This document shows positions 6,122-35,700 of a DNA stretch of 64,000 nt, piece after piece. The number at the start of each line of letters is the position of its first letter. The first letter of the stretch is position 1. A model generated the notes under the pieces. That model was not told where the DNA came from and ran no database searches. It saw nothing but the letters and a program-made list of their open reading frames with translations. Origin of the DNA: Gemmatimonadota bacterium (GTDB lineage: Bacteria; Gemmatimonadota; Gemmatimonadetes; Longimicrobiales; Gaopeijiaceae); NCBI GenBank assembly GCA_026706635.1, contig JAPOYJ010000038.1, positions 1 through 64,000 of the forward strand, read 5' to 3'. The position numbers were made by a program, and so were the translations under genes.

Positions 6122-6141
6122 CCCGGGTGCCCCGCACGGGC
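6121..6141 (+). terminator. Hairpin between convergent genes
   Basis: GCCCGGGTGC-ccc-GCACGGGC is a GC-rich stem with one bulged G. It begins one base inside the upstream stop codon, in the 64-bp gap before the uvrA stop. It probably serves as terminator for the lipoprotein gene and perhaps for uvrA; there is no T-run. Confidence 0.45.
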
Positions 6142-6185
6142 CCACCGGCTATCGGCACGCGGTGGTTCCCACGCAATTGCTTCGC

Positions 6186-13770: not shown

Positions 13771-13950
13771 TCCGCATGTGGAAGCCCCCGGATCTGCAAG
13801 CCTGAATCGGGGAACGAAGCCTCGGATATGGAAAATGTAAACTGTGGATTACATATTGTAAATCATACATTACAGAATGGGCGGGCTGGCGAAGCCACCA
13901 GTACGGGCATTGTAAACCGTGAATTACATATTGTAAAGCACACATTACAC
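13771..13950. repeat. Intergenic repeat region with two 39-bp double operators
   Basis: Two copies of TGTAA-N8-TTACA-TAT-TGTAA-N8-TTACA lie at 13836-13874 and 13911-13949. Each half is a palindrome with a TGT-N12-ACA frame, and the two centres are 21 bp apart, two helical turns. The spacers share the scaffold motif CGAAGCC...GTACGG. The second copy ends one base before the tamA-like stop codon. Probably a regulator-binding region for tamB, or a mobile palindromic repeat, or both. Confidence 0.7.
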
Positions 13951-17009: not shown

Positions 17010-17017
17010 TTCGATGC

Positions 17018-17860: not shown

Positions 17861-17874
17861 TGCTCGCGTCCTCC

Positions 17875-19023
17875 TTATGCGCGGGTGAGGGCCGAGGCAC
17901 CCTCTGACGCGGGGCCCGACGCCGGGTCGTCCGACGGCTTCGGGTACCACGATAGCACCGCCGGTAGCGGTGCGCTCGCCGCGGCTTCCGATATGCCGCC
18001 AAAGTCGCCCGAATCGAGGCGGTAGAGCGCCGCGCGGGCGATCATCGCGCCGTTGTCCATGGAGAGCCTGGGCGAGGCCGCAAAGAGGCGGCCACCCGGC
18101 GGAAGCTCGGTCCGGATGCTCTCCCTGAGAGCTCCGTTGGCGGCAACCCCCCCACCCAGGAGCACGCGGGCGCAACCGGTGACCGCGACCGCAGCGAGCG
18201 TCTTCGACGCCAGAACCTCGACGGCGGCCTCCTGAAACGCGGCGGCGATGTCGTCCCGGTTGGAGGGACTCGGCGAGCCGCCCTCCACTTCGGCGACTCT
18301 GCGCGCAACCGCCGTCTTGAGTCCGGAGAAGGAGAAGTCGAAGATGTCGCGGTCGGCCCTCCGATCCTGCGGGTTGAGGCTGTGGGCACCCCTTCGGAGA
18401 GACTCGACGCCGCTCATGAGGGGTCGTGGCAGCGCGAATCGGGCCGGGTCGCCCCTCGCCGCGGCCGCCTCGATCCCCGGGCCTCCCGGGTACGGCAGCC
18501 CCAGGATGCGGGCCACCTTGTCGAACGCCTCGCCGACGGCGTCGTCGCGCGTCTCGCCCATGAGGTGGTAGTCACCCCACTCCGGCACCCAAAGCAGCAT
18601 TGTGTGCCCCCCCGAGACCAGGAGGGCGACGAAGGGGGGCTTCGCCTCCGGGTCCTCCAGGATCGGAGCGAAGAGGTGCCCCTCCATGTGATGGACCGGG
18701 ACGTAGGGCACGCCGAGCGCCATGGCGACGGCCCGCGCCCACGACACGCCGACCAGGAGGGCGCCGATGAGCCCCGGGCAGGCGGCCACGGCGACGGCGC
18801 CAAGCTCCCTCCGGTCAAGATCCGCGTCGCCCAGCGCCGCCGAGACAACCGGCTCGATGCGCCTCAGGTGATCGCGCGCGGCCAGCTCGGGAATGACGCC
18901 GCCGTATACCTGGTGCATGTCCTGCGAGTGGATCGCCAGCCCCAGGATCGACCCCTCGCGGTCGAGCACAGCCGCCGAAGTCTCGTCGCAGGTCGTCTCG
19001 ATGCCGAGAATTGCCCCCCTCAC
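17875..19023 (-). CDS. tsaD: tRNA N6-adenosine threonylcarbamoyltransferase
   Basis: Transfers the threonylcarbamoyl group to A37 of ANN-decoding tRNAs (t6A). The 382-residue product has the expected ASKHA features: ILGIETTCDETSAA at the N-terminus, PGLIGALLVG, the metal-binding VHHMEGHLFAP, FSFSGLKTAV, LLGGGVAANGALR and MDNGAMIA. Length is slightly above the usual 335-345 because of a C-terminal extension. The start is GTG at 19023, overlapping the ybbR-like stop by four bases (GTGA), so the two are coupled. Confidence 0.97.
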   Translation of the reverse strand: MRGAILGIETTCDETSAAVLDREGSILGLAIHSQDMHQVYGGVIPELAARDHLRRIEPVVSAALGDADLDRRELGAVAVAACPGLIGALLVGVSWARAVAMALGVPYVPVHHMEGHLFAPILEDPEAKPPFVALLVSGGHTMLLWVPEWGDYHLMGETRDDAVGEAFDKVARILGLPYPGGPGIEAAAARGDPARFALPRPLMSGVESLRRGAHSLNPQDRRADRDIFDFSFSGLKTAVARRVAEVEGGSPSPSNRDDIAAAFQEAAVEVLASKTLAAVAVTGCARVLLGGGVAANGALRESIRTELPPGGRLFAASPRLSMDNGAMIARAALYRLDSGDFGGISEAAASAPLPAVLSWYPKPSDDPASGPASEGASALTRA

Positions 19024-19979
19024 CGCTCGGCGACCTCGGAGACCGTCACGGAGTCCGGCGAGATCTCGGCGGAGACGAAGGCGGGCAGCCCCTCCACCCA
19101 GAGCGCGACTCTCGCCTCGCCGCTCTCGCCGATCGCTGCCTGCACCGCCTCCAGCTCGGCCGCAACGCGCACCGAGAGGCTCGACGCTTCGACCTGCTCC
19201 AGCAGCTGGTCGGCACCGAGGAGGGTGACGGTGGCGGTCGCCGAATCGAGGTCGAGCGAGGCACCCCCGTCGGGCAGCTCGATCTGCAGTGGCACCAGCG
19301 CCCGCCTGCTCTTGGGGGCAGCGTCGACGGTGAGGGTCGCGGACATCGGGCTGACCGCAAGCTCCGCCATGCCGGTCGTGTCGACCACCACCTCGAACTT
19401 CCCGCCTCCGTCAATCCGGCCGAGGTCGAAGGGCGCGAGGAACACGGTCTGGAGCTCGTCCACGATCTGCGCCGGGCCGCGCACGTTGATAAAGAGGAGG
19501 TTGGCGCGGGGAGGGCGGACGAGCGCCAGAGTCTCCGGAAGCTCGCCCGTAAGCCGCACAGAGACGGGAATCTCCTCCTCCTTGATGCGCCCAAAGGAAA
19601 GACGCACGGTGCTCGGGTGGAGATCCTCGATCGTGACCTCGTTGCGGTCGACGCCCGTGACCCAGTCGCGCATCAGAGTCAGCACCGAATCGGCGCTCGT
19701 GACCGAGTCCACGCGAATGGCCACCTTGGGGCGCGACATCGCAACGCGCAGGATGTCGCCCAGCGGACCGCTCACGCTCATCTGAACCTCGCCGGGCGAT
19801 GGATCCCCGATCAGATACCAGTCCCGGTGCACATGCTCGACCCGCACCTCGACGGCTGGAATCGCGAGGCGCTCCGGGCGGTCGTCTGACAGGCGCATCG
19901 TCACCCAGAGGATCGCGGCCAGGACCAGGGCGCTGATCTTGAGGCGCCAGTTGCGCGCCAGGATGCCGGGGAGCGCCAA
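19020..19979 (-). CDS. YbbR/CdaR-like membrane-anchored protein
   Basis: A 319-residue protein with one N-terminal membrane segment (RNWRLKISALVLAAILWVTM) followed by four YbbR-type beta repeats, the fold of CdaR, the extracytoplasmic regulator of the diadenylate cyclase CdaA. No cdaA is visible nearby, so the role here is inferred from the family only. The TTG start at 19979 lies one base after the thioredoxin-gene stop (TAGATTG). A longer frame reaches 20033 but overlaps that gene's coding end. It ends inside the tsaD start. Confidence 0.82.
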   Translation of the reverse strand: MALPGILARNWRLKISALVLAAILWVTMRLSDDRPERLAIPAVEVRVEHVHRDWYLIGDPSPGEVQMSVSGPLGDILRVAMSRPKVAIRVDSVTSADSVLTLMRDWVTGVDRNEVTIEDLHPSTVRLSFGRIKEEEIPVSVRLTGELPETLALVRPPRANLLFINVRGPAQIVDELQTVFLAPFDLGRIDGGGKFEVVVDTTGMAELAVSPMSATLTVDAAPKSRRALVPLQIELPDGGASLDLDSATATVTLLGADQLLEQVEASSLSVRVAAELEAVQAAIGESGEARVALWVEGLPAFVSAEISPDSVTVSEVAER

Positions 19980-19980
19980 T

Positions 19981-20613
19981 CTACTCTGTCGCCGCAGGGG
20001 CCGAGCCGTCGCGGTCGGAAGGGGCGGGGGCACCCGTCCCGGCGCCGTCCACCAGCCGCCGCACCAGCTCGATGTTCGTCGGCGAATCCCAGGTGGTCGC
20101 GCCTGCCACCTTCTTGTAGATGTAGCCGTCCCGTCCGATCAGGAACGACTCCGGGACGCTGTACGTCCGGTAGATTCTCTGAATCTCGCCCTCTGGGTCG
20201 AGCAGTATCGGGAAGGTCAGCCCCAGATCCTCGGCAAAGGCGACCGGGTCTCCGCCGCCGCCCAGGGCGGAGCGGATGCCCGCCTGCGGCGCGTCAATGC
20301 TGACTGCGGCAATCTCGAAGTCGCCGCGCCCGAAGAGGTCGTAGAGGCGCTGCATCGACGGCATCTCCTCCCTGCACGGGGCGCACCACGTCGCCCAGAC
20401 GTTGAGGAGGAGCACCTTGCCCCCGAATGTCGCCAGGGTAACCTCGCCGCCGTGGACGTCCGCAACCGAGAAGTCCGGCGCGGGGGACCCGGCCGAGACC
20501 GGGCGCGCTCCCACGCCGCTCCGCAAGACGCCTGCGGCAGCTGCTACGGCGACGATCACCGCGGCCACCCCGATCAACCGTCCGAGGACCCCCTGGCGCG
20601 TCTGGTCGGCCAC
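19981..20613 (-). CDS. TlpA/ResA-like membrane-anchored thiol-disulfide oxidoreductase
   Basis: A 210-residue protein. The N-terminal membrane anchor (about 10-30) is followed by an AhpC/TSA-Redoxin domain: APDFSVADVHGGEVTL, then the redox motif LLNVWATWCAPCREEMP, and SVPESFLIGRDGYI with the conserved cis-Pro region. Probably a periplasm-facing reductant for cytochrome c maturation or other thiols; no ccm genes are nearby. A Gly/Ala/Pro-rich acidic tail follows the domain. It sits 6 bases after the PASTA gene and 1 base before the YbbR gene. Confidence 0.9.
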   Translation of the reverse strand: MADQTRQGVLGRLIGVAAVIVAVAAAAGVLRSGVGARPVSAGSPAPDFSVADVHGGEVTLATFGGKVLLLNVWATWCAPCREEMPSMQRLYDLFGRGDFEIAAVSIDAPQAGIRSALGGGGDPVAFAEDLGLTFPILLDPEGEIQRIYRTYSVPESFLIGRDGYIYKKVAGATTWDSPTNIELVRRLVDGAGTGAPAPSDRDGSAPAATE

Positions 20614-20619
20614 CTGCCG

Positions 20620-21510
20620 TCAGCTCCCGTCGCGCGCCGGGCGTCTGCCAGGCCTGTCGAGTGGATTGGGAATAAAGGGCTTGCGAGGCTGCCTAGCCGG
20701 TCTCCCCAGCATCTCCTGGCCGACGACCAGGCGCACCGAGGTGCCAGCCTGGACCTGTGCGCCCGCGGCAGGCCGCTGCGCGAAGACCCGGCCAACGTAG
20801 AGGATGCTGTAGCGCCGCTCGACCGCTCCCACCAGCAGGCCCATTCCGCTGAGCAGCGCCTCGGCCTCGGCCTGGGCGAGGCCCGCCAGCGACGGCATCC
20901 GAGAGGATGGTGGCCCCCTGCTGACGCTGAGGCGCACGGTCGCGGGGATGCCGACCCTAGTCCCCGGGATCGGGTCGATTGCGACTACCCAGCCGCGCTG
21001 CACCTCCGACTCGACGGTGTCGACTTCGACCTCGAAGCCTCCGGCCTCGAGAGCGGCCGTCGCGCGTGCGCCCCTCAGGCGGGTGAGATCCGGCACCGAG
21101 CGGACCTCGGGGCCCAGCGACCGGGTCAGGCGCACCCCTGCGCCCGGGAGCGCAGTGCGGCCCGGGAGCGGACTCTGCCCTATGACCGACCCGGCCGGAG
21201 CGACGGGGTGCCGAACCGAGTCGCTCGAAGTCACGGAGAGGCCCGAGTCACCGAGGAGCGCCACCGCGGCCCCCACCGGCATGCCGCGGACATCTGGCAC
21301 TCCCTGTAGCCCAGGTGGCGGCTCGGGCGCGGGGAAGTAGTGGGTGGTGGCGACCAGATAGCCCGCCAGCATCCCCACGCCGCCGAGACCCAGCGGCACA
21401 GTCAGCCGCCGGACGGGGACTCGCCGCGACCGGAGGCCGCGCCGTCTACGAGCCCTCGCGCGAGGAGGGCTCGCCCTACCAGTGCCCGCAAAGAGGCGTC
21501 GTCGCTTCAC
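20620..21510 (-). CDS. PASTA-domain membrane protein
   Basis: A 296-residue protein: a basic Arg-rich cytoplasmic N-terminus, one membrane segment (LTVPLGLGGVGMLAGYLVATT), then three PASTA repeats (VPDVRGMPVGAAVALL, VPDLTRLRGARATAAL, MPSLAGLAQAEAEALL). PASTA repeats bind peptidoglycan stems or muropeptides in Ser/Thr kinases and PBPs. No kinase or transpeptidase domain is present, so this is a stand-alone PASTA protein, probably envelope-associated. The tail is Arg/Pro-rich. The GTG start overlaps the rsmB stop (GTGA). Confidence 0.85.
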   Translation of the reverse strand: MKRRRLFAGTGRASPPRARARRRRGLRSRRVPVRRLTVPLGLGGVGMLAGYLVATTHYFPAPEPPPGLQGVPDVRGMPVGAAVALLGDSGLSVTSSDSVRHPVAPAGSVIGQSPLPGRTALPGAGVRLTRSLGPEVRSVPDLTRLRGARATAALEAGGFEVEVDTVESEVQRGWVVAIDPIPGTRVGIPATVRLSVSRGPPSSRMPSLAGLAQAEAEALLSGMGLLVGAVERRYSILYVGRVFAQRPAAGAQVQAGTSVRLVVGQEMLGRPARQPRKPFIPNPLDRPGRRPARDGS

Positions 21511-22823
21511 CCGGCCCTCCTCATCCTAGCGGCGAATGCACCGTCGAACCCGTTCTCGTGCGGTAGCAGGCGAAGGCACCCCCGGCCATCGAGATGCCGT
21601 GACGCCCCGCTCCCGGCGTCGATGCGAAAATCCCGGCGACGGGCAAGGAAGTCCCTGATCTGGCACCAGTTCTCCTCCGGCTCGAGGCTGCATGTAGCGT
21701 ACACAAGGAGTCCTCCGGGCGGTACTGCGGAGGCTGCGCCGTCCAGGAGCTCGCGCTGCAGTAGCTGAAGCGACCTAAGCCTCTCCGCGGTGATGCGCCA
21801 CCGCCCGTCCGGACGGCGCCTAAAGGTGCCGGTCCCGGAACAGGGAGCGTCGAGAATCACCGCGTCCGCCTGGGTCACGGGGGGAAAGCGGGCGTCGGCC
21901 ACTACCGTCCAGGGACGCGGCTGCGCGGCACCGGATCGCGCCAGACGATGCCATGCGTCAGTTACCAGCGACAGCCTGGAGGGCGAGATGTCGGCTGCGA
22001 GCACCCGTGCGGCCCTCTCGCCGAGCGCCAGCGCCTTGCACCCGGGCGCCGCGCAGAGGTCGGCGACGACAGAGCCGGCGTCCGGCGCGGCGTATTCCAC
22101 AACCAGCGAAGCTGCCGGATCCTGGATGATGCCCGGTGTCGCCGCCAGCGCATCGGCGGGCTTAGCCCCCGACGGCAGGCGGATCCACACCTCCGCCCCT
22201 GCCCCGACCTCCGCCTCCTCGATCGTGATTCCGGCTCCGGCGAGAGCGGCGACCGCCCCTTCGCGACTCGTCCCAATCGGCCTCATGTAGGTGTCCGCCT
22301 CCCGGTTGTTCATTTCGACCAGCGCCCTGGCACCGACAGCGCCGAAGGCCTCGATCCACCTCTCCACCAACCAGCTCGGATGCGACCCCCACGCCGTCAG
22401 GTAGCCCGCCACGTCGACGACAGGATCCGGGTAGCTCGACCGCACCCAGCCGTGCCTCGCGACCTTCCTCAGCACGGCATTGACCAGTCCGGCGGCGGCG
22501 CGGCCGGGCGAGCGCCGCACATGCTCCACCGATTGCGAGACCGAGGCGTAGTCCGGTACGCTCGTCATCTCCAGGATCTGGAAGGCGCCCATCCTGAGCG
22601 CCCTCCGCACCGGCGGGTCCAGCTTGGCCAAGGCGCGGTCGCAGTAGCGCGCCAGCAGGTGGTCGAGGCGGCCCTGGAGCCGCACTGTGCCGTAGGCGAG
22701 CGCGCGGATCCAGCCACGTTCGGGCGAGTCCTCCGCACCCGACTCCCGCCACGCGACGTCGAGGCGGCGGCCTGCCTCGACCTGCTTCAGGATCGAGGCG
22801 GCCAGCGTCCTCCCGCGAGTCAA
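21507..22823 (-). CDS. rsmB: 16S rRNA m5C967 methyltransferase
   Basis: A 438-residue protein with an N-terminal NusB-like RNA-binding domain (about 1-135, with VNAVLRKVARHGW) and a C-terminal SAM-dependent m5C methyltransferase. It has the SAM loop DLCAAPGCKALAL, the DAPCSGTGTFRRRPDGRW motif with the releasing cysteine, and YATCSLEPEENW with the nucleophilic cysteine. It methylates C967 of 16S rRNA in the known family. The TTG start at 22823 gives the natural domain start. It is the first gene of the minus-strand run, directly downstream of a repeat/operator block. Confidence 0.93.
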   Translation of the reverse strand: MTRGRTLAASILKQVEAGRRLDVAWRESGAEDSPERGWIRALAYGTVRLQGRLDHLLARYCDRALAKLDPPVRRALRMGAFQILEMTSVPDYASVSQSVEHVRRSPGRAAAGLVNAVLRKVARHGWVRSSYPDPVVDVAGYLTAWGSHPSWLVERWIEAFGAVGARALVEMNNREADTYMRPIGTSREGAVAALAGAGITIEEAEVGAGAEVWIRLPSGAKPADALAATPGIIQDPAASLVVEYAAPDAGSVVADLCAAPGCKALALGERAARVLAADISPSRLSLVTDAWHRLARSGAAQPRPWTVVADARFPPVTQADAVILDAPCSGTGTFRRRPDGRWRITAERLRSLQLLQRELLDGAASAVPPGGLLVYATCSLEPEENWCQIRDFLARRRDFRIDAGSGASRHLDGRGCLRLLPHENGFDGAFAARMRRAG

Positions 22824-23150
22824 CGCTTCCGGTCCGGAAAAAATCGCGCGCGGGCAGCGAGGCGCCGGTTTGGAAAGGCTGGCAGCACCGCTACAGGCCC
22901 ACGGGGCAACGCAGAGGACGCCCCGGCGAAAATTGTAAACCTGGAATTACATATTGTAAAGCAAACATTACAGTATAGGCGAGCAAGCGCAGGGGTCCAG
23001 CGGGGTTGCAGCGCCGCTCCTGCCGTGGAAGGTTTGTCCACGGGCTGCCATAGGTCCGTCGGCCGTTGCGTACCTGCCTGGATTCTTGCGCATGGGCCAA
23101 TCCCAAGGCAAATTGATAACGCCTATCGACCCGCCAACGGGAGGCGTGCC
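22824..23150. promoter_or_regulatory. Repeat/operator block and leader shared with the 27.5 kb gene
   Basis: No gene. A 39-bp double operator lies at 22934-22972 (TGTAAACCTGGAATTACA, then TAT, then TGTAAAGCAAACATTACA). A scaffold arm follows, ending GGTTTGTCCACGGGCTGC (23031-23048). The leader CTTGCGCATGGGCCAATCCC and ribosome-binding region ACGGGAGGCGTGCC precede the ATG at 23151. The same order of blocks, inverted, lies upstream of the gene starting at 27535, so the two ends of this locus are inward-facing copies. It may also serve rsmB on the other strand. Confidence 0.7.
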
Positions 23151-24091
23151 ATGTCTGCAAGTTCTCGCCACCGGGATACTCGTTGCCACCGAGTGCGCGC
23201 CGCGCTCCGTCTCGCCCTGGGCGTCTCCGTCCTGGCCGCGGTCGCCGCCTCGGTGGTCGGGTGCGGAGATCCGCAGCAGCCAGTTGCCGAGAATATAGAA
23301 GACCTGACGGTCGAGGTGGGCAGCACCGAGCCGGTCGATCTCGCTGCGCACTTCAGCGACCCGGACGGAGACGAGCTCATGTACGGGGCGAGCTCATCGA
23401 ACACGAGCATAGCCACGGTCAGCGTATCGGGTGCCACGGCGCAGGTGACGGCGGTTGCGGCGGGGAACGCCACGGTGACCGTCACCGTCACGTCGGTCGT
23501 ACCCCGCGTCACGCCGCCCACCGTGACCGTGCTCCCCGACACGGACGCCGTCGCCACCCCGGCGTCCGACGTGGTGGCGGTGTAGCTGAGCGCATCACCG
23601 TCTGGATCGCTGAGGTTGCCCGAGACATCTACCTGCGCCTCCTGTCCGAGAAATACCTCGATGTCCTCGATCGGTTCGCCAGCCTCCGGCGCCCGGTTCG
23701 GCACCGTCACCGTGAAGGTCTGAACGACAGAGAGCTCGCCGGGGTCCGTAGCGGTTACGGTCACCGTGTCGATACCCTGAGACACGCCGCTCACCATGAC
23801 CGCGCTCCCCGACACGGACGCCGTCGCCACCCCGGCGTCCGATGTGGTGGCCGAGTACGCAAGGACATCTCCGTCCTCGTCGCTGAAGTATCCCGCGAGA
23901 TCAACCGACTCGGTGCTGCCGACGTGCACCGTCAGCTCCGGCATACTCCCGACTGCGACTGGCGGCTGGGGATCGCCGCATCCGGCCACCCAGGAGGCGA
24001 CCGCGACCGCGACGGAGACGCTCGAGGCGAGCCGGAGAGCGCCGAGCGTCCGGCGGCGATGAGCATCCCGGCGGCGAGAATCTACAGACAT
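23123..24091 (-). CDS. Cadherin-repeat lipoprotein, opposing partner of the inversion
   Basis: A 322-residue reading frame. The N-terminus MSVDSRRRDAHRRRTLGALR has lipobox WVAGC. Two cadherin-like repeats follow (YFSDEDGDVLAYSATTSDAG and GNLSDPDGDALSYTATTSDA). After about residue 203 the frame runs antisense through the opposing + strand gene and ends in unrelated, basic sequence. Genuine family sequence is therefore 24091 to about 23480; the rest is read-through. The LRR region present in the two paralogs upstream is missing. The ribosome-binding region AACAGGAGGCGTGCC is nearly identical to that of the other members. Probably truncated by the same inversion as its partner. Confidence 0.6.
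   Translation of the reverse strand: MSVDSRRRDAHRRRTLGALRLASSVSVAVAVASWVAGCGDPQPPVAVGSMPELTVHVGSTESVDLAGYFSDEDGDVLAYSATTSDAGVATASVSGSAVMVSGVSQGIDTVTVTATDPGELSVVQTFTVTVPNRAPEAGEPIEDIEVFLGQEAQVDVSGNLSDPDGDALSYTATTSDAGVATASVSGSTVTVGGVTRGTTDVTVTVTVAFPAATAVTCAVAPDTLTVAMLVFDELAPYMSSSPSGSLKCAARSTGSVLPTSTVRSSIFSATGCCGSPHPTTEAATAARTETPRARRSAARTRWQRVSRWRELADMARLPLAGR
23151..23585 (+). CDS. Chimeric, truncated cadherin-repeat lipoprotein (inversion junction)
   Basis: A 144-residue product beginning MSASSRHRDTRCHRVRAALR with lipobox VVGC. It has one cadherin-like repeat (VEVGSTEPVDLAAHFSDPDG...NTSIATVSVSG), then loses similarity. From about 23480 on, its codons are the antisense of the opposing gene (SVVPRVTPPTVTVLPDTDAV is the reverse reading of SGSTVTVGGVTRG...). 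The switch falls in GGTGACCGTCACC (23474-23486), a near-palindrome encoding VTVT-like residues on either strand. So the original 3' part of this paralog was replaced by inverted DNA. The first 110 residues match the three neighbouring paralogs. Confidence 0.6.
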   Translation: MSASSRHRDTRCHRVRAALRLALGVSVLAAVAASVVGCGDPQQPVAENIEDLTVEVGSTEPVDLAAHFSDPDGDELMYGASSSNTSIATVSVSGATAQVTAVAAGNATVTVTVTSVVPRVTPPTVTVLPDTDAVATPASDVVAV

Positions 24092-24125
24092 GGCACGCCT
24101 CCTGTTGGCCGGTCAACATGGGGCA

Positions 24126-25739
24126 TCAATCGCACCTCGGGCCACGCGACATATCGATTCCGTCCAGCCAATCGTCGAACTCGCTCGTGTCGGGCGCGCA
24201 GAGGCCGTCGTTGTCGTCCCAATAGAACCGCCATAGCAACGATAGGTCGAGGAAATCGGGCGGAATCTCGCCGGTGAGCGAATTGTTGTAAGGATACAGC
24301 TCTTCGAGATTCGACAGCCTCCCCAGCTCTGGCGGAATCTCGCCGGTCAGCGAAGTGTCCCAGAGGCCCAGGTGTTCGAGATTCGGCAGGTCGCCCAGCT
24401 CGGGTGGAATCTCGCCGGTGAGTGGATTGCTGCCGAGTGCCAGCGACTCGAGGTTCGACAGACTCGCCAGCTCGGGTGGAATCTCGCCGGTTAGCTCATT
24501 GGCGTATAGTCCCAGGTCCTCGAGATTCGACAGCTCGGCAAGCTCTGGCGGAATCTCGCCGGTGAGTGGATTGCTGCCGAGTGCCAGCGACTCTAGATTC
24601 AACAGACTCCCCAGCTCCAGCGGGATAGCGCCGGTGAGAAAATTGGACCGTAGACGCAGCGTATGGACCCGGCCGTCCGCATCCGTGCTCACCCCGTACC
24701 ACTCGTCGAGCGGTGCATCCGTCAGCCAGTCCGAGTTGATTCTCCAGTTGTCGCCGTCCAGTTCGTCGTAGAGGATCTCCAGCACTTCCCGGTCGGAGAG
24801 GCGGACAGTCATCGCAAGGGCCTGCGTCGCTGAAAGCCCGCCCGGGTCAGTCTCCGCCACCGTCACGTCGGCCGTACCGTGCGACACGCCGCTCACCGTG
24901 ACCGCGCTCCCCGACGCGGACGCCGTCGCCACACCAGCGTCCGATGTGGTGGCCGCGTAGCCGGGCGCGTCACCGTCTGGATCGCTGAAGTTGCCCGAGA
25001 CATCCACCTGGGCCGCCTCTCCGACGAACACCTCGATGTCCTAGATCGGTTCGCCGGCCACAGGCGCCCGGTTCGGCACCGTCACCGTGAAGGTCTGAAC
25101 GGCAGAGAGCTCGCCGGGGTCCGTAGCGGTTACGGTGACCGTGTCGACGCCCTCCGACACGCCGATCACCACAACCGCGCTCCCCGACACAAACACCGTC
25201 GCCACTCGGGGGTCCGATGTGTTGGCGGTGTAGCTGAGCGTATCACCGTCTGGATCGCTGAAGTTGCCCGAGGCATCCACTAGCGCCTCCTGCCCGACGA
25301 ATAACTCTATGTCTTCGATCGGTTCGCCTGCCACCGGGCCCCGGTTCGGCACCGTCACCGTGAATGCCTGATCCGCAGAGAGCCCGTCGGGGTCCGTAGC
25401 GGTGACGGTCACCGTGGCGTTTCCCGCGGCAATCCCCCTCACCAGCGCCGTGGCGTCCGATATCCTGACCGTGGCTATGCTCGTGTTCGACGAGTTCGCC
25501 GCGTAGGTGAGGATGTCGCCGTCGGAATGGCTGAAGTACTCCGCGAGGTCAACCACCTCGGTTATGCCGACCTCGACCGTCAGATTCGGGATGCCCCCGA
25601 CTGCAACTGGCGGCTGGGGATCGCCGCACCCGGCCACCCAGGCGCCGACCGCAGCCAGGACGGAGACGCTCGAGGCGAGGCGGAGAGCGCCGCGGACTCG
25701 GTGGCGACGAGTATCTCGGTGGCGATAACCTACAGACAT
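24126..25739 (-). pseudogene. Cadherin/LRR surface lipoprotein interrupted by one amber codon
   Basis: The N-terminus MSVGYRHRDTRRHRVRGALR has lipobox WVAGC. Two cadherin-like repeats come first, then at 25041-25043 a TAG stands where all paralogs have GAG in GEPIEDIEVFVG. The same frame continues (MFVGEAAQVDVSGNFSDPDG) through a third repeat. It then has an LRR cap (YDELDGDNWRINSDW), six or seven LRRs of the LTGEIPPELG type, and the cysteine-containing C-cap DGLCAPDTSEFDDWLDGIDM. Without the stop it would encode about 537 residues. A single substitution explains the break, so this may be a recent mutation, a sequencing error, or a suppressible stop. Confidence 0.75.
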
Positions 25740-25773
25740 GGCACGCTCCTGTCGGCGGGTCGATATTGGGGTA

Positions 25774-27535
25774 TCAATCGCACCTCGGACCGATCCAACC
25801 GACGAGTCCGTCCAGCCATTCGTCGAACTCGCTCGTGTTCGGCGCGCAGAGGCCGTCGTTGTTGGACCAATAGAATAACCGTAGCGACGATAGGTTGAGG
25901 AAACTGCGCGGAAACTCGCCAGTTAGCTGATTGTGATTTAGAAACATATCTCTGAGATTCGACAGGCTGCCAAGCTCGGACGGAAGATCGCCGGTTAGCC
26001 GATTGATCCTGAGCTCCAGTACCCTTAGATTCGACAGCTGGCCAAGCTCCGGTGGAATCTCACCGGTTAGCTGATTGCCAATGAGCACTAGATGCGTGAG
26101 ATTAGACAGACTTCCAAGCTCTGGCGGAATCTCACCCGTAAGGTCGGTGTTCCTTAAGGTCGAGTACCTTGAGATTCGACAGGCCGCCCAGCTCGGGCGG
26201 AATCTCGCCCGTTAGCTGATTGACGCCGAGACCCAGGGTTTCGAGATTCGACAGGTTGGCCAACTCCAGGGGAATCTCGCCAGTCAGCTGATTGCGCCCG
26301 AGAGCCAGGCGTTCGAGATTCGACAGATTGGCCAACTCTAGGGGAATCTCGCCAGTCAGCTGATTGTAATAAAGTCCGAGGGCTTCGAGATTCGACAAGT
26401 CACCCAGCTCTGGCGGGATCTCGCCGGTTAGCTCATTGACACTGAGATTCAGCCAAGTAAGACTGGACAGGTTGCCAAGCTCGGAGGGAATCTCGCCCGT
26501 AAAGCGGTTGCCCCGCAGTTCCAACTCCTTGAGATTAGGCAGGTCGCCCAGCTCTGGCGGAATCTCACCCGTAAGGTCGGTGTACCTAAGGTTGAGTACC
26601 TTGAGGCTCGACAGGTCGCCCAGCTCAGAGGGAATCTCGCCGGTTAGCGAATTATGGTAGAGATAAAGGTATTCGAGATTCGACAGGTCGCCCAGCTCAG
26701 AGGGAACCTCGCCGGTTAGCGAATTTAATTCCAGACGCAAGGAGGCGAGATTCGACAAGTTGCCCAGCTCGGAGGGAATCTCGCCACTAAGTTCGTTGTA
26801 CCTAAGGTTCAGTTCCTTGAGATTCGACAGGTCGCCCAGCTCGGGCGGAATCGCGCCGGTCAGCGAATTGGAGTAGAAAGACAGGTTCCTCAGGCTCGAC
26901 AGACTCCCTAGCTCTGGCGGAATCTCGCCCCTCAGCGAATTGCTGTCGAGAGACAGGACTTCGAGGTCCGACAGACTCCCTAGCTCTGGCGGAATCTCGC
27001 CCGTCAACCCATTGTTGATGAGGTCCAAAGTACTGAGCGCATCGCCGTCTGGATCGCTGAAGTTGCCCGAGACATCTACCTGCGCCGCCTCCCCTACGAA
27101 TACCTCGATGTCCTCGATCGGTTCGCCAGCTACCGGCGCCCGGTTCGGCACCGTCACCGTGAAGGCCTGATCGGAAAAGAGCCCGTCGGGGTCCGTAGCG
27201 GTGACGGTCACTGTGGCGTTTCCCGCGGCAATCCCCTTCACATGCGCCGTGGCACCCGACACGCTGACCGTGGCTATGCTCGTGTTCGAGGAGCTCGCCG
27301 TGTACGTAAGGGCATCTCCCTCCGGGTCGCTGAAGTACCCCGCGAGGTCAACAGTCTCGGTGCTGCCGACCTCGACCGTCAGCTTCGGCATGCCCCCGAT
27401 TGCGACTGGCGGCTGGGGCTCGCCGCACCCGACGACCCAGGGGGCGACCGCCAGAACGGAGACGCGCAAGGCGAGCCGGAGAGCGCCCCGCGCTCGGTGG
27501 CGGTGAGTAGCTCGGTGGCGACAACCTGCAGACAT
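25774..27535 (-). pseudogene. Cadherin/LRR surface lipoprotein with a single-base frameshift
   Basis: MSAGCRHRATHRHRARGALR with lipobox WVVGC is followed by one full cadherin-like repeat and part of a second. The second runs from SDPDGDALS directly into LRR TLDLINNGLTGEIPP, so the end of that repeat and the LRR cap are missing. About 17 LRRs follow. Near 26155 an extra base (CCTTAAGG here, CCTAAGG in the sister repeat at about 26590) shifts the frame to a quick stop at 26132. The other frame carries on with LTGEIPPELGSLSNLTHLVL and the proper C-cap DGLCAPNTSEFDEWLDGLVG to 25774. The joined product would be about 587 residues. Upstream block and leader are shared with the gene at 23151. Confidence 0.75.
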
Positions 27536-27955
27536 GGCACGCTCCTGTCGTTGGCACCATAGCCCTGAGGTTGGCCCACGCGCAAGAAGCTGGGCAGGCC
27601 GCGGACAATCCTCCCCGGCAGGAGTGGGGCGGCATCCCTGCTCGACCGCTTCACTCGCCTGTCCATACTGTAATCTATGCTTTACATTTTGTAATCCCTG
27701 ATTTACAGTTTCCGTACCCGTGGCTTCGCTCTGCGCTGCTCCTCGGCCCGGTAGCGCTGCCACCAGCCCTTGCAGCCCGCGGGTGCACCCTGGCGGCATT
27801 CGAGGGGCGCTGCATCCGCGCTCGGTCGAGCGTGGTCGCGTGGCTGCCGGGTTATTATATCGATGAACGCGCGAACGATGCCTGCCCCACGATTCCCTCG
27901 TCAGGGTCGGCTGCGTGAATTGCGCCCCGCGAATCTCCAGAGTACGATTTGCCAG
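27536..27955. promoter_or_regulatory. Repeat/operator intergenic region
   Basis: No gene. It holds the leader for the minus-strand lipoprotein gene (27536-27590) and a scaffold arm (GCAGGCCGCGGACAATCCTC, 27595-27614). A 39-bp double operator lies at 27669-27707 (TGTAATCTATGCTTTACA, TTT, TGTAATCCCTGATTTACA). A second, same-orientation arm copy follows at about 27770-27830 (GCAGCCCGCGGGTGCACC, GGCATTCGAGGGGCGCTGC). The block from 27536 to 27707 is the inverted counterpart of 22934-23150. On the + strand it also precedes the PPTase. Confidence 0.65.
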
Positions 27956-28678
27956 ATGAGCTCTCAAGACGAGTGGTGGAGTCCGTGGCGCCCGAACGGG
28001 AGCTCGTTCGTCCTTCACGTCGATCTCCGGCCCCACCCCGACTGCGAGGAGCGGGCGCTGGAGCTGCTCGACGAAGACGAGCGGGCGCGCTGGAGGAGGT
28101 TCGTGGTCAGGGGGGCGCGACGGCGGTACGCGCTGTGCCGCGCGGCGCTGAGGATCAACCTCTGTCGGCGGCTCGGGTGCTCCAATAGCGAGCTGACCTT
28201 CGGCTACCTGGAACACGGCAAACCCTTCGCCATGGTCAACGGCAGGCCCGCCGCCGCCAGCTTCAACGTGAGCCACAGCGGCCAGCACGGCCTGATCGGG
28301 TTCGCCGAAGGCCCCGGTTTCGGCGTGGACCTGGAGATGCGCAGGCCCGACCGGGACTTCGACGGCATCGGGAGCCGCGTCTACGGACCGCGCGAGCAGC
28401 GCGCGCTGGCCGACTCCGGACCAAGGAAGCCGGAGCTCTTCTACCGGCTGTGGAGCCTGAAGGAGGCGCTGATCAAGGCCCTGGGCACCGGCTTCGCCCT
28501 GAGCCCCGCGCGCTTCGAGGTGCCGCCCGTGATGCTGGAGGGCCAGCGGTCCGCCACCTTTCGCTTCCCACACCTGCCTCACGACCAGTACCGGCTGGAG
28601 GATCTCGGGGAACGCCGGTTCGCCGCCGCCCGCGCCTATCTTATGACAGCCCGTGACCAACGGGGAACGCAGAGCTGA
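27956..28678 (+). CDS. 4'-phosphopantetheinyl transferase, Sfp type
   Basis: Converts apo carrier proteins to holo form by moving phosphopantetheine from CoA to the carrier serine. The 240-residue product has the family blocks in order: FNVSHSGQHGLIGFA, the Mg-binding GVDLEM, and FYRLWSLKEALIKALGTGF (WxxKEA). ATG 27956 is preferred because the upstream open codons (to 27770, including ATG 27863) are repeat-derived and basic. Its stop is four bases before a GTG that begins a duplicated copy of the PKS 5' end, so it was once directly coupled to a PKS reading frame. Likely clients are the PKS ACP (Ser2539) and the free carrier protein at 46.3-46.5 kb. Confidence 0.93.
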   Translation: MSSQDEWWSPWRPNGSSFVLHVDLRPHPDCEERALELLDEDERARWRRFVVRGARRRYALCRAALRINLCRRLGCSNSELTFGYLEHGKPFAMVNGRPAAASFNVSHSGQHGLIGFAEGPGFGVDLEMRRPDRDFDGIGSRVYGPREQRALADSGPRKPELFYRLWSLKEALIKALGTGFALSPARFEVPPVMLEGQRSATFRFPHLPHDQYRLEDLGERRFAAARAYLMTARDQRGTQS

Positions 28679-28682
28679 GCTC

Positions 28683-28829
28683 GTGCAACCTCCCAGCTCC
28701 ATGCCCGCCCGCTTCGCCCCCGGAGAGCCGATTGCGATAGTCGGGATGGCGTGCCGGTTCCCCGGCGCAGACGACATCGAGGCCTTCGGGCGCCTTGTGT
28801 GGAAGAAAGTGATATCAATCTCGAAATGA
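28683..28829 (+). pseudogene. Duplicated 5' fragment of the PKS gene
   Basis: 28683-28795 matches 32747-32859, the first 113 bases of the PKS gene, with four mismatches (including GTG against ATG as start). It encodes the KS N-terminal block EPIAIVGMACRFPGADDIEA, then diverges into WKKVISISK and a stop after 48 codons. It is too short to function. It marks the old junction PPTase-PKS and brackets, with the intact copy, the regulator/receptor/lipoprotein cassette. Confidence 0.85.
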
Positions 28830-28842
28830 CGATGATATCACT
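28808..28842. promoter_or_regulatory. Palindromic operator-like site AGTGATATCA-N15-TGATATCACT
   Basis: Two perfect inverted 10-mers separated by 15 bases lie right after the PKS-fragment duplication and about 60 bases upstream of the Fur-family gene. The core GTGATATCAC is itself palindromic. A matching pair lies at 32455-32489 at the other end of the cassette. Probably regulator-binding sites; alternatively element ends. The regulator is unknown. Confidence 0.55.
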
Positions 28843-28904
28843 TCCTGGGAGATGAGGCTCGGGGGGTAGAAGCGACTCCTCCGTGCCTCCGAGGGGGGCA
28901 GAGC

Positions 28905-29342
28905 ATGCGGATTCCGGGGGCGTTATCGTACATGTCACTCACGCGACGCGTCCTTCTCCCCCCCCCTGCTTCGATGCGACGAGACACCCGTCAGCGCCGG
29001 GCGATCTGCCGCGTCTTCCTGGACGCCGGTCGCCCTCTAACGCGGGACGAGGTCCTCAGGTACGGCCAACGGATCGTGCCCTCACTCGGGGTGGCGACCG
29101 TCTACCGCAACGTGAAGATCCTGGCTGACGAGGGGTGGCTCTCGGAGGTGGAGCTCCCAGGCGGAGTCCTTCGGTACGAGCTGGCCGGCAGCCCGCATCA
29201 CCACCACTTCCTCTGCCGCGCCTGCGACCAGGCCTTTGACGTCCATCGGTGCCCGGACGAAATCGAGATGCTGGCACCCGACGGCTTCGAGGTCGACAGC
29301 CACGAGCTGGTTCTCTTCGGTCGCTGCGCGGAGTGTACCTGA
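28905..29342 (+). CDS. Fur-family metal-responsive transcriptional regulator
   Basis: A 145-residue protein with the Fur winged helix (TRQRRAICRVFLDAGRPLTR, then VATVYRNVKILADEGWL) and the metal-binding dimerisation domain. The latter has HHHHFLCRACDQAFDVHRCP with one CxxC, a VDSHELVLFG block, and a C-terminal second pair, CAEC. Two CxxC pairs support a structural zinc site. Sub-type (Fur, Zur, PerR) cannot be fixed, though the neighbouring His-rich lipoprotein favours zinc. ATG 28905 has the best ribosome-binding site (GAGGGGGGC); homology begins near 28974. It probably represses the receptor gene downstream through the palindrome at 29499. Confidence 0.9.
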   Translation: MRIPGALSYMSLTRRVLLPPPASMRRDTRQRRAICRVFLDAGRPLTRDEVLRYGQRIVPSLGVATVYRNVKILADEGWLSEVELPGGVLRYELAGSPHHHHFLCRACDQAFDVHRCPDEIEMLAPDGFEVDSHELVLFGRCAECT

Positions 29343-29361
29343 CCCCCTCCGACTAAGCAGC

Positions 29362-29393
29362 CCGCGCGAGATCGTCCGGGGACTGCTACCCGC
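29362..29393. repeat. Degenerate scaffold-arm copy
   Basis: AGCAGCCCGCGCGAGATCGT is followed by CCGGGGACTGCTA. It combines degenerate versions of both arms of the intergenic repeat (TAGCAGCCCG... and GCGCGAGATTATCCACGGAC). It starts just beyond the Fur-family stop codon and lies upstream of the TonB receptor gene. Confidence 0.45.
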
Positions 29394-29498
29394 GCCCAGC
29401 AGTCCGTAGAGGCGGCCTGGGAACCCCGGAGGGCCGCACCTACCTGCGCATGGTGACACCATCGCTGCCGTAGATGGGTCGTCCCCCTTGATCATTAT

Positions 29499-29514
29499 TG
29501 ATAATACATTATCA
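29499..29514. promoter_or_regulatory. Fur/Zur-box-like palindrome
   Basis: TGATAAT-AC-ATTATCA is a perfect 7-2-7 palindrome inside an unusually AT-rich stretch (29488-29527) that also holds overlapping ATTATCATTATCATT units. It resembles Fur-type operators (GATAATGATAAT units). It lies 68 bases upstream of the TonB receptor ATG and downstream of the Fur-family gene, as expected for its target. Confidence 0.7.
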
Positions 29515-29582
29515 TTATCATTCAAGCACACCACTCCCCCCTTGCCGCTGTCCGCTGACAGTACCCCCGACAGGAGACACTC

Positions 29583-31829
29583 ATGTCATCATCCGGCGTT
29601 TCCAGATGCCGCTTTGCCGTCCGCCTCGTCCTTCTCGGGACCGTCTTCGCAGGCGTTCCAGCGCTCGCCGCTGGCTCGACACCCGTCGAGCGGCACGCAG
29701 CGGACACCATCGACCACGTAGCGGGAATCGTCCGGTCGGCAGAGAGCGGAGAGCCTCTCGCGGGCGCGACGGCGACGGTCGTCAGCACGGGCGGGAGCGC
29801 AATCACCCACGGAGACGGGTCGTTTCGCATCGCCGTGCCGGATGCCGAGCGGCATCGGCTCCGCATCGATCGACTCGGGTACGCGGCGGTTGCCGTCGAT
29901 CTCTGCCCGGGAGAGATCGCCACCGTCGATCTCGAGGTGGCCGCCATCCCACTGCCTGACGTCGTCGTCGCCGCGGTCCTGAGCCCCACGCCCACCAACG
30001 AGGCGATCCGGCCCTCCGCCGTCTTCGCGCAGGAGAAGCTGCAACGGCACCTGGCGGGCACCCTCGCGCAGACGGTGGAGTCGGTCCCCGGGGTAGCCGT
30101 GACCAGCATGGGGCCGGGCACTTCCCAGCCGGCGATCCGCGGCCTCGGCGGAGACCGGATCCTCGTGCTCGAAGACGGCCAGCGGGTGGGCGACGTCGTC
30201 AACAGCGGAGCGGACCACGCCACGGCGGTCGCTCCTTCCTCCGCTCGGCGGATCGAAGTGATTCGCGGGCCGAGCGCGATTCTCTACGGGAGCAGCGCAC
30301 TCGGCGGCGTGATCAACGTGGTTCGGGACGAAATACCCCGGGCCGTCCCCTACCGCGCGACCGGCTTCGCCTTGCTCGAGACGCAGACGGCGACTCGCGC
30401 CATCGGGGGGAGCGGCCAGGTGACGGTCGGAGTCGCCGAGCACATTCCTCTTCGCGTCGAGGTCTCGAAGCGCGAGGGAGGGAATCTGCGGACGCCCATC
30501 GGGACGCTGGCGGGAACCCAGACCGACATCTGGAGCGTGGCGGCGGGGACGTCGTGGGTTGACGACTGGGGCTACGCGGGCGGTTCGGTTCGCTTCTACA
30601 GTAACGACTATGGGATCCCCGGAGGCTTCGCAGGCGGCCACACGAACCCGGTTCGCACGGAGCAGGAGAGGGCCGCGAGCAGGTTTCGCAGCGTCTATCG
30701 GCCGGATCGAGGTCTCGAGGCTATTGAGATCGATGCTGGCTACACCTGGTACCGGCACCACGAGTGGGAATCCACGACCATCCTGGGAACGGTCTTCGAG
30801 CGCCAGATCGCGAGCGGGGAGGCGCGGGCGCGGCACGCCGGGTGGGGACCCTTCACGTCCGGCGCCGTCGGAGCGAGAGTCTCGTGGGAGCACTTCGGAT
30901 TCGGAGGCGAGCTCTACTCCCCGAATACCCAGCGCACGACGCAGGCCGTGTACGCCCTCGAGGAGATCCAGCTCGAACCGGTCTCGGTCGAGGCCGGGCT
31001 CCGCTACGATCGGGTCGAGCTGAAACCCAACGAGGAAGAGGTGTCCGACATCGGACACATCCGCGCGCGTTCCTTTGGCGCGGTCTCCGGATCGCTGGGC
31101 GCACTTCTGCCGTTGACGGAGCGAATCGCCCTGGGAGCGAGCGTAGGCCGGGCCTTCCGCACCCCGGATGTGCCCGAGCTCTACTCCGAGGGGCCTCACC
31201 TCGCGGCCAATTCGTTCGACGTTGGCAACCCCGAGCTCGAGACGGAAACCGGACTTGGAATCGATGTATTCGGGCGCATCACCGGACAACGCCTCAGCGC
31301 CGAGGTGACGTGGTTTCGAAACACGATGGCGGGCTACATCTTTCCGCAGGCGACAGGGGGACGAAGCCGCACACAGCTCCCCATCTATCAGTTCGTGGGC
31401 GAGGACGCCGTTCTGACCGGCCTCGAGAGTCTCTTGGAGTGGTTGATGCCGGCCGGATTCAGGGTGGAGGCCGCCGCATCGTACGTGCACGGCACGCTCC
31501 GCGCGACAGAGGAGCCTCTCCCCTTCATCCCGCCGCTCCAGGGTCGCCTTGCCGTCGGCTATTCTCCGGTGGACTGGTTCGTGGAGGCCGAGACGCGGCT
31601 GGCCAGCAGCCAGCAGCGGACCGGGCGGTTCGAGCAGCATACCGACGGGTACGCGGCCCTCGGCCTCTCGGGCGGTCTGCGTCTCACTGTCGCCGGGCGG
31701 CTGCACGTCGTGACGCTCCACTTCGAGAACCTCGGCGACACCGAATACAGGAACCACCTGTCGCGCGTCAAGGAGATCATGCCCGAGGCGGGGAGATCCG
31801 TCAGCGTGACATATCGAGTCGTCTTCTAG
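29583..31829 (+). CDS. TonB-dependent outer-membrane receptor
   Basis: A 748-residue receptor: signal peptide (VLLGTVFAGVPALAA), a carboxypeptidase-regulatory-like beta domain (about 45-115, VAGIVRSAESGEPLAGA), plug (LAQTVESVPGVAVTSMGPGT, ILVLEDGQRVGDVVN, EVIRGPSAILYGSSALGGVI), and a 22-strand-type barrel ending in VSVTYRVVF with a terminal aromatic residue. Architecture and context resemble zinc receptors of the ZnuD kind, but heme, cobalamin or siderophore cannot be excluded. Good ribosome-binding site GACAGGAGACACTC. Likely regulated through the palindrome at 29499 and co-transcribed with the His-rich lipoprotein. Confidence 0.92.
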   Translation: MSSSGVSRCRFAVRLVLLGTVFAGVPALAAGSTPVERHAADTIDHVAGIVRSAESGEPLAGATATVVSTGGSAITHGDGSFRIAVPDAERHRLRIDRLGYAAVAVDLCPGEIATVDLEVAAIPLPDVVVAAVLSPTPTNEAIRPSAVFAQEKLQRHLAGTLAQTVESVPGVAVTSMGPGTSQPAIRGLGGDRILVLEDGQRVGDVVNSGADHATAVAPSSARRIEVIRGPSAILYGSSALGGVINVVRDEIPRAVPYRATGFALLETQTATRAIGGSGQVTVGVAEHIPLRVEVSKREGGNLRTPIGTLAGTQTDIWSVAAGTSWVDDWGYAGGSVRFYSNDYGIPGGFAGGHTNPVRTEQERAASRFRSVYRPDRGLEAIEIDAGYTWYRHHEWESTTILGTVFERQIASGEARARHAGWGPFTSGAVGARVSWEHFGFGGELYSPNTQRTTQAVYALEEIQLEPVSVEAGLRYDRVELKPNEEEVSDIGHIRARSFGAVSGSLGALLPLTERIALGASVGRAFRTPDVPELYSEGPHLAANSFDVGNPELETETGLGIDVFGRITGQRLSAEVTWFRNTMAGYIFPQATGGRSRTQLPIYQFVGEDAVLTGLESLLEWLMPAGFRVEAAASYVHGTLRATEEPLPFIPPLQGRLAVGYSPVDWFVEAETRLASSQQRTGRFEQHTDGYAALGLSGGLRLTVAGRLHVVTLHFENLGDTEYRNHLSRVKEIMPEAGRSVSVTYRVVF

Positions 31830-31900
31830 AGCGAGCACGCCTGTTGCGGAGGCGCTTCGCGGGGACGAACAGAACATCAACACAAACGAGGTGAAGAGAG

Positions 31901-32371
31901 ATGAGAGAATCGAGACTGAAGCTGCCCTTCGCCGTGCTGACGGCGGGCATTCTGGCGCTATCGGCGTGCGATAGCGAGACCGAACCCGACGAAGACCACG
32001 CCGAGGAGGTCGAGGGTGTGATCCTGGTGCTGGGCGGCGATACGCTCGCGACCTACGACGGGCACGATAGCGAGTGGACCGGGGAGCTGGAGGTGGAGCC
32101 GGGTGAGGAAACCGGCCACATTGCCGTGACCTTCGTTGACCACGACATGGAGGAGGTCCAGCTGGGCGACGACTTCTACCTGGAGGTCGAGGTCGAGGAC
32201 GAGTCCGTCGCCGAGTTCGAGCAGGACACCCCCGGGGAGTTCGGGGGGCACCTACACGGAGGTGACGAGGGCGACACCGACGTCGTCTTCCGCCTGATGC
32301 ACGGCACCGTCGGCTCTGGACACGCCGACTTCGTGACCACGGCGCTCCACATTCATGTGCACGAACACTGA
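31901..32371 (+). CDS. His/Asp/Glu-rich lipoprotein, putative metal binder
   Basis: A 156-residue protein: signal peptide and lipobox (ILALSAC), then a very acidic mature region with clustered histidines (DEDHAEE, DGHDSEW, GGHLHGGDEGD, LMHGTVGSGHADF) and a C-terminus ALHIHVHEH. No catalytic motif. The composition suggests zinc or other transition-metal binding at the outer membrane, handing metal to the TonB receptor 71 bases upstream. The ribosome-binding region GAGGTGAAGAGAG precedes the ATG. I do not recognise a named family. Confidence 0.8.
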   Translation: MRESRLKLPFAVLTAGILALSACDSETEPDEDHAEEVEGVILVLGGDTLATYDGHDSEWTGELEVEPGEETGHIAVTFVDHDMEEVQLGDDFYLEVEVEDESVAEFEQDTPGEFGGHLHGGDEGDTDVVFRLMHGTVGSGHADFVTTALHIHVHEH

Positions 32372-32746: not shown

Positions 32747-35700
32747 ATGCAACCTCCCAGCTCCACCCCCGCCCGCTTCGCCCCCGGAGAGCCGATTGCG
32801 ATAGTCGGGATGGCGTGCCGGTTCCCCGGCGCAGACGACATCGAGGCCTTCTGGCGCCTCCTGGAGATTGGCGGAAACGCGGTCACCGAAGGGGTGCCGG
32901 GCTCGGGCGAGGGACGCTGGGGCCAGATCTTCGGCGACGACCCGGTGGAGAGCGCGGCGTGCCGCTTCGGCGCCTTCGTCGACGACATCGACCTCTTCGA
33001 CGACGCCTTCTTCCGGATCTCCCCGGTGGAGGCCGAGCTGCTCGATCCGCAGCAGCGGATGATGCTGGAGGTCAGCTGGCAGGCCCTTGAGGACGCGGGG
33101 ATCGACCCCGACCGCCTGAAGAAGAGCCGCACCGGCGTCTACTCTGGGATCAGCAACGACGAGTACCGCATGCTGGTCGTGGATTCGGCCAAGCCCTCCG
33201 AGGCCGCGGCGTGCCTCTACGCCCTGAGCGGCACCAACCTGAATGGGACTGCGGGCCGCGTCTCCTTCGTACTCGGGCTGAACGGCCCGGCCAAGGCGGT
33301 GGACGCCGCCTGCGCGTCGGCGATGGTGGCGATCAACGACGCGGTCGCCGACCTGCAGCAGGGGAGGGCGGATCTCGCCATCGCGGGCGGGGTGCAGGCG
33401 ATCCTGAACGGGCGCATCTACGAGCTGCGCGCGGACGCGATGATGCTCTCGCCCGAGGGGCAGTGCAAGACCTTCGACGCCTCCGCCGACGGGTACGTGC
33501 GGGCCGAGGGGTGCGGGGTCGTGGTCCTCAAGCGCCTCTGCGATGCCGAGGCGGACGGAGACCCGATCTGGGCGGTGATCCGGGGCTCGGTGGTCAACAA
33601 CGGCGGAACCGGGGTCGGGCTGACGGTGCCGAACACCCCCGCGCTCGAGCAGGTCATGGAGGACGCGCTGGCCCAGGCGGGCGTCGATCCGCTCGATGTG
33701 GGCTACGTCGAGGCACACGGAACGGGAACCGCGGTCGGCGACCCGATCGAGCTGGACGCCGTCTCCAGCGTCTACGGCAGGGGGCGCGACGCCGGCACCC
33801 CGCTCCTGATCGGTTCCGTGAAGACGAACATGGGGCACATGGAGTCGGCGGCGGGGGTGGTCGGGCTCATCAAGGCGGCGCTGGTGGTCAGGCGGGGGGT
33901 GATCCCGAAGCACCTGCACTTCCGCGATCCCAACCCGGCGGTGGAGTGGGACAGCATGCCGCTCCGTGTGACCTCGGAGACTATGGAGTGGCCGGAGCGC
34001 GCGGGGCGTCCGCGGGTGGCCGGGGTCAACTGCTTCGGGATCTCGGGAACGAACGCGCACATCGTGGTGGAGGAGTACCGTGGGTCGGGGTCGCGGCAGC
34101 CGGTCGCGGCGTCGCTTCCCCCGGCGCTGGAGCACCTGGAGCTCCCGGAGGGGGCGATGAGGCCGCGCCGGGTGCGCCTGCTCCCTCTCTCGGCCAAGTC
34201 GGAGGCCGCGCTGAGGGAGACGGCGGGTCGGTACCTGGCGTGGCTCGACGAGCGGGATGATCGGACGGTCCCCGAGGCGGCTCCCGCCGAGCCGACGCTC
34301 TCGGAGATGGCGTGGACGGCGGGCGTGGGGCGCACCCACTTCGATCACCGCGCCGGGGTGGTCTTCCGAGACGCCGCGTCGCTTCGACGGGAGCTGGAGG
34401 CGCTGGCAGAGTCCGGCGATGTCGCGATGCCGCGGCCGGGCGGCGTCGGCAGGGTGGCGTTCGCCTACACGGGGCAGGGGAGCCAGTGGGTGGGGATGGG
34501 CCGGGATCTGTACGAGACGGAGCCGGTGGCGCGCGCCGTCCTGGACCGCTGCGAGGCAGTTGTCCGCGAGGTGCGGGGCGCCTCACTCCTGGATGTCATG
34601 TTCGGCAGCGGCGGAGCGGAGACGAGCGGCGGCGGGAACGTTGCCGAGCTGGTCGACACGGCCTGGGAGCAGCCAGCGCTCTACGCGCTGGGGTGCGCGC
34701 TCACCGCCCTCTGGTCGAGCGTGGGCGTCCGTCCCGAGGTGGTGGTGGGGCACAGCGTCGGCGAGATAGCCGCCGCTCAGGCCGCAGGCGTCTTCACCCT
34801 GGAGGACGGCATGCGATTCGCCTGCGCGCGCGGGGCGCTCATGTCGCAGATGGCGGACGGCACCATGGCAGCGGTCTTCGCGCCGCCCGGGCGGGTGGCG
34901 GGGGCGCTGGAGGCGCACAACGCCGGCTTCGGCGGAGTCGGACTCAGCATCTCGGGGGACAACGGCACCCATCAGGTGGTCAGCGGTCCGCTGGAGGAGG
35001 TCGAGGCGATCTCCGGGGAGTTCGCCTCCGCAGGGATCCGGGTCCGGCGGCTGAACACCCGCAAGGCCTTCCACAGCGCCCTGGTGGAGCCGATCCTTGA
35101 CGCCTTGGAAGGGTCGCTGGAGGGCGTGCCAGTCGCCCCGCCCTCTCTGACCGTGGTCAGCAACCTGACCGGCCAGCCGGTCGATCCCGGCCAGACGCTG
35201 GACGGCGCCTACTGGAGGCGGCACGCCCGCGAGCCGGTGGCGTTCGCCCACGGGGTGGAGTCGCTCGCGGAGCTGGGCGTGGATCTGGTGGTGGAGATCG
35301 GGCCGCGCCCGGTCCTGGGTGCGATGGCGCTCTCGGTGTGGCCGGAGTCGCCGGGGACCCCGGCGCCAGCGGTGATCCCGACGCTGAGTGCACCCGCGGG
35401 AGACACGGCTTCGCGAGGCGAGGCGGGCGCGGCGGCGGGCGGCACGGCCGCACCTCTGGGCTCTGACTTCGCGGAGGCCGTCGCCCGCTCCTACGAGGCG
35501 GGGCTGCCCATCCGGTTCGAGGGGCTCTTCGCCAGCGAGGCCCGACGGCGCATCTCCATCCCCGGCTACCCCTTCCAGCGGAGACGCCACTGGCTCGAGG
35601 CCCCCAGGCGGCGGAGGCTCGGGGCGGGCCATCCCCTCCTGGGGTCCCGGCATGAGTCGGCGCGCGGCGAAGTGACCTTCGAGACGGAGATCCACCCTTC

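Follow-up and report, generated by a model that had tools for sequence, protein, structure and literature searches.

An apparent scar of past rearrangement in a growing lipoprotein gene family of a Gemmatimonadota bacterium

Parts of four paralogous lipoprotein genes lie between rsmB and a 4'-phosphopantetheinyl transferase (PPTase) gene on contig C51 of a 2.8-Mb draft genome (86 contigs) of a Gemmatimonadota bacterium; gene A is on the plus strand and B, C and D are on the minus strand, facing A. This arrangement raises the question of whether the locus is a recombination or inversion cassette that shuffles surface antigens, as the initial annotation had proposed, or whether the opposed genes have another origin. 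Our results suggest that the locus resembles a scar left by an earlier rearrangement in an expanding gene family. Coordinates (Table 1) refer to the window, the whole 64,000-nucleotide stretch of C51 that was analysed, unless another contig is named.

The locus and the junction between genes A and B

The outermost genes point towards each other, A rightward and D leftward, as had been annotated. Lipobox, cadherin/Big domains and LRR are all present, placing the genes in a Big/cadherin–LRR lipoprotein family whose other members start with a lipobox signal peptide, followed by one to three Big/cadherin-like repeats and, at the C terminus, an LRR that ends in ...GPRCD. The four genes are paralogs, as first described, but comparison with other family members shows that all four are broken: A is cut at the junction, past its first cadherin domain, and B within its second, C has a TAG where the paralogs have GAG, and D, besides a frameshift, runs from cadherin-2 straight into the LRR (...DGDALS followed directly by TLDLINN...).

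Table 1. Coordinates of the A–D locus, its flanking genes and related repeats
Feature	Position	Strand	Remarks
rsmB	21507..22823	-	Preceded by gene A here; directly by thiG in congeners
Left operator and arm repeat, upstream of A	22927..23049	+	77% to right block
Double dyad TGTAA-N8-TTACA x2, 21-bp period, upstream of A	22934..22972	+	Within dispersed repeat
Gene A, N-terminal half	23151..23487	+	ATG 23151; signal peptide, lipobox, first Big/cadherin domain; family homology stops at 23487
Junction A/B	23479..23487		9-bp microhomology CCGTCACCG; inside near-palindrome 23474-23486
Gene B, N-terminal part	23479..24091	-	ATG 24091; signal peptide and two cadherin-like domains; truncated at junction
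Gene C, cadherin-LRR lipoprotein	24126..25739	-	ATG 25739; in-frame TAG 25041-25043
Gene D, cadherin-LRR lipoprotein	25774..27536	-	ATG 27536; cadherin-2/LRR fusion ~27030, frameshift ~26160
Right operator and arm repeat, upstream of D	27594..27725	-	Dyads 27669-27707, inverted relative to left
PPTase	27956..28678	+	Metallophosphoesterase precedes PPTase in four relatives
Dispersed composite repeat copies	9193-9261, 13818-13949, 22927-23049, 27594-27725		Loci L002-L020, L028-L047
TGTAA-N8-TTACA dyads in window	13836, 13857, 13911, 13932, 22934, 22955, 27669, 27690, 43389, 43410
Truncated thiG-thiS copies on C70 (L110)	991-1321; 2997-3344		259 bp at 86-93%, 84 bp at 90%, compared with the C8 genes

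Intact or near-intact paralogs are found on contigs C12, C34, C70, C8 and C81, in the same-strand order within each contig, and the first four of these contigs hold same-strand family arrays. Relatives of the family occur across the genus, the closest named match in our searches to the N-terminal part of C (74%) being in the Gemmatimonadota MAG RHO1_bin_51, and a literature search with the terms tried returned no paper on this family in sponge Gemmatimonadota. Tandem arrays of Ig/cadherin-like and LRR lipoproteins in Gemmatimonadota (Big_9, Big_2, Cadherin_4, LRR_1/LRR_8) share with this locus the signal peptide and lipobox, the one to three cadherin-like repeats and the C-terminal LRR; whereas those arrays run on the same strand, at the C51 locus one member faces three and all four are broken.

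Alignment to the paralogs shows that A tracks the family up to 23487 (...GCCACGGTGACCGTCACCG) and that B does so on the other strand up to 23479, with the two overlapping in the 9 bp CCGTCACCG; the change from sense to antisense falls inside GGTGACCGTCACC. The collision of the two leftmost genes and the strand switch within the near-palindrome are therefore as originally reported. A and B are only 56% identical, and the alignments support a join of two different paralogs at 23480. Ordinary homologous recombination between inverted paralogs keeps the reading strand and thus does not make such a join.

The near-palindrome does encode V-T-V-T and does recur, GGTGACSGTCACC being found five times in the window with at most one mismatch compared with 0.23 occurrences expected by chance, but it is not a special site. 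The excess arises because the sequence encodes V-T-V-T: the palindromic core is present in 5 of 19 VTVT codon runs of the family, where codon usage predicts 4.2, and a palindrome at the rate expected from codons argues that there is no selected site. On these counts the near-palindrome is best described as a coding coincidence, which would offer microhomology in both orientations, rather than a dedicated site.

Gene order around rsmB and the thiamine genes

Comparison with related genomes places the junction at a break in an otherwise conserved run of genes. thiG abuts rsmB in all 21 congeneric loci examined, thiS and thiE lie beside thiG in 20 of them, and fmt is also part of the run in each of the five congeners for which a longer stretch was taken (G003, G010, G014, G020 and G021). 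In this genome rsmB adjoins gene A on C51, and fmt (C8:6631-7557), thiE, thiS and thiG are on contig C8. There the order is a partial LRR gene at the contig start, C8a, thiG, thiS, C8c, C8b, thiE and fmt, with the lipoprotein genes on the plus strand, opposite to the thi genes. Lipoprotein genes on the opposite strand split the run at both the thiE/thiS and the thiG/rsmB boundaries (2428-6617 within locus L113, C8:1-8500), and gene A, next to rsmB, is among the lipoprotein genes at the latter boundary. Since the junction coincides with this break, a rearrangement between paralogs with its breakpoint in the lipoprotein family appears to be the best reading of the gene order.

Gene order shows that a lipoprotein array expanded at the rsmB–thi–fmt locus. 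The family would have grown as tandem units, each with its own leader and 3' flank, inserted into the conserved run. We consider it probable, though well short of certain, that this array was cut inside A and joined to B of a second array through the 9 bp. The cut, which we infer together with the join that the alignments display, would have come later, close to where the first cadherin domain ends; the half of A on the rsmB side would then have been joined head-on to the truncated B by the V-T-coding microhomology, B-C-D representing a second array beside the PPTase gene. The distal half of the first array, with thiG, thiS, thiE and fmt, would now be on other contigs, and the four genes left on C51 would be decaying. 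One large rearrangement by short-homology joining may account for these steps. Inversion and another kind of large rearrangement both fit, and the evidence does not separate the two. A two-break event works only if B had already been truncated beside the C70 flank or else lost its 3' half, and this weighs against our preferred history.

The arrangement had been taken as direct evidence of an inversion between paralogs. The rearrangement between paralogs stands, but the inversion does not follow, as no reciprocal tail-to-tail product was found in the draft genome (degenerate pattern, 3 mismatches) and the candidate partner on C70 is joined to unrelated DNA. The metallophosphoesterase gene, which is the operon partner of the PPTase gene in four relatives and was sought as a marker of the other breakpoint, was likewise not detected in this genome.

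On contig C70, three family genes alternate with two truncated thiG-thiS copies (Table 1). Because its lipoprotein genes are interleaved with broken copies of thiG-thiS, the C70 array probably descends from the same rsmB-thi-fmt locus. In C70c, the first of the three, family homology starts at the column matching A 23475, close to where A stops, and on the upstream side the gene abuts unrelated DNA. C70c may be the missing half of A, a possibility weakened by a mismatch in their overlap (GTGACC in A, GTGGAC in C70c). The stretch C8:1-398 is also a possible C-terminal half of A, but might just as well be part of C70a. The start of C8 falls within an LRR gene, and the missing link is therefore unassembled.

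These observations bear on two other explanations. In the first, the contig would be an assembly chimera: rsmB-A would not be adjacent in the cell to the reversed B, C, D and PPTase, and the true order would be rsmB-A-...-C8a-thiG-thiS-...-fmt. The conserved order does predict rsmB and thiG in one locus, and both C70 and C8 end inside the lipoprotein family; however, the join contains no Ns, and the sequence shared there is 9 bp, or 13 bp if the whole palindrome is counted, which is below a normal assembly k, and A and B are too different for a fold-back of one sequence. A match of 9 bp is shorter than the usual assembly k-mers and short for a k-mer graph error. We therefore regard a chimera as unlikely. 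In the second, a complete convergent pair, A on the plus and B on the minus strand, would have lost both 3' halves through a local deletion between short repeats. This fits the end product and the microhomology with no need of an inversion, but it leaves unexplained both the separation of rsmB from thiG and fmt, now neighbours of same-strand paralogs on C8, and the start of C70c where A stops. The gene-order results (thiG and fmt on C8, rsmB on C51) speak against the deletion as the main model, and we judge it more doubtful still than a chimera. Most likely the junction is genuine and marks where a large rearrangement broke an expanded array of paralogs.

The expansion of a surface-protein family has thus split a run of thiamine and translation genes that is uninterrupted in all congeners examined; it has left broken thiG-thiS copies behind, and the split coincides with a join within one of the family genes. 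This case is useful for the study of genome plasticity in this Gemmatimonadota group and cautions against mistaking paralogs that switch strand for programmed inversions.

Upstream blocks and the question of programmed variation

The presence of two inverted operator/leader blocks at the ends of the locus, each with a 39-bp double dyad, is borne out. The regions upstream of A and D, leader and signal peptide included, match at about 70% over 421 bp, and the two copies of the block core at 77% over 123 bp; the inverted placement of the blocks is explained by the fact that each serves as the upstream region of one of the family genes. What does not hold is their role as ends of a locus-specific cassette, since the operator/arm block is a genome-wide repeat (40 copies scored, 128 candidates). 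For the GC-rich hairpin arm alone, 40 copies were scored among 359 candidates, with many copies 95-100% identical. Many copies of the repeat enclose the double TGTAA-N8-TTACA operator between GAGCGAAGC-like repeats, and the copy at ~9193 is without the operator part.

All ten dyads in the window are paired with a 21-bp period. Double dyads were found in 14 of 15 genus genomes searched, G009 being the exception, and gave about 190 matches in this genome with both strands counted; nine genomes of other families had none, and a reversed control pattern gave no match. BlaI/MecI was considered as the dyad regulator and rejected, a single dyad lying within 1.5 kb in only 4 of 21 congener blaI loci, which was judged background. 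The window gave no Rfam match at gathering thresholds. In being short, hairpin-forming and of high copy number, the block resembles REP/MITE-type dispersed repeats (e.g. GTAG-tagged REPs), but many copies here differ in enclosing the double operator.

A system that actively varies surface lipoproteins by DNA inversion or gene conversion, drawing on broken copies as silent donors, would be consistent with the many paralogs with shared leaders and with C70a and C70b, which are 99% identical over 298 bp of the leader/signal region and differ in the remainder. This tract suggests recent conversion or duplication, although tandem duplication explains it too, and, this pair aside, shared exact runs are at most 73 bp. 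Donor-like broken copies are present at the C51 locus, but several intact genes with their own leaders lie elsewhere in the genome. However, Pfam scans of selected neighbours (13954-32368), of the genes of the locus itself and of some more distant genes detected no recombinase, no site is enriched, no expression site was recognised and the reciprocal product was not found in the draft genome. Site-specific inversion would call for near-identical inverted end sites; the blocks are only 70-77% alike and dispersed, and the palindrome is at its codon-expected frequency. Neither the cassette nor the surface-antigen shuffling system originally proposed, whose four genes at this locus are all broken, is upheld, and we consider an active system the least probable of the explanations weighed here.

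Comparison with known systems points in the same direction. Invertase-driven phase-variable loci (shufflon-type systems and Bacteroides promoter inversions) share inverted upstream blocks and opposed paralogs with this locus, but here neither a recombinase among the genes scanned nor a dedicated site was found, the blocks are genome-wide and there is no intact invertible unit. Silent-cassette gene conversion of the vls, pilS or msp2 type similarly involves truncated paralogs, conserved leaders and some long identical tracts; in our case, in contrast, no single expression site was recognised, and the one long recent tract lies within one tandem array only. A broader view, in which the arrays would represent continuing surface diversification in a host-associated bacterium, with leaders that share a double operator passed among paralogs by conversion, broken donors, and inter-array rearrangements making head-on fusions, seems to us very improbable.

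The window also encodes a 3519-aa modular polyketide synthase (32747-43303; KS-AT-DH-MT-ER-KR-ACP-KS-AT), a few kb away from the genes for the PPTase, a Fur-type regulator and a TonB receptor.
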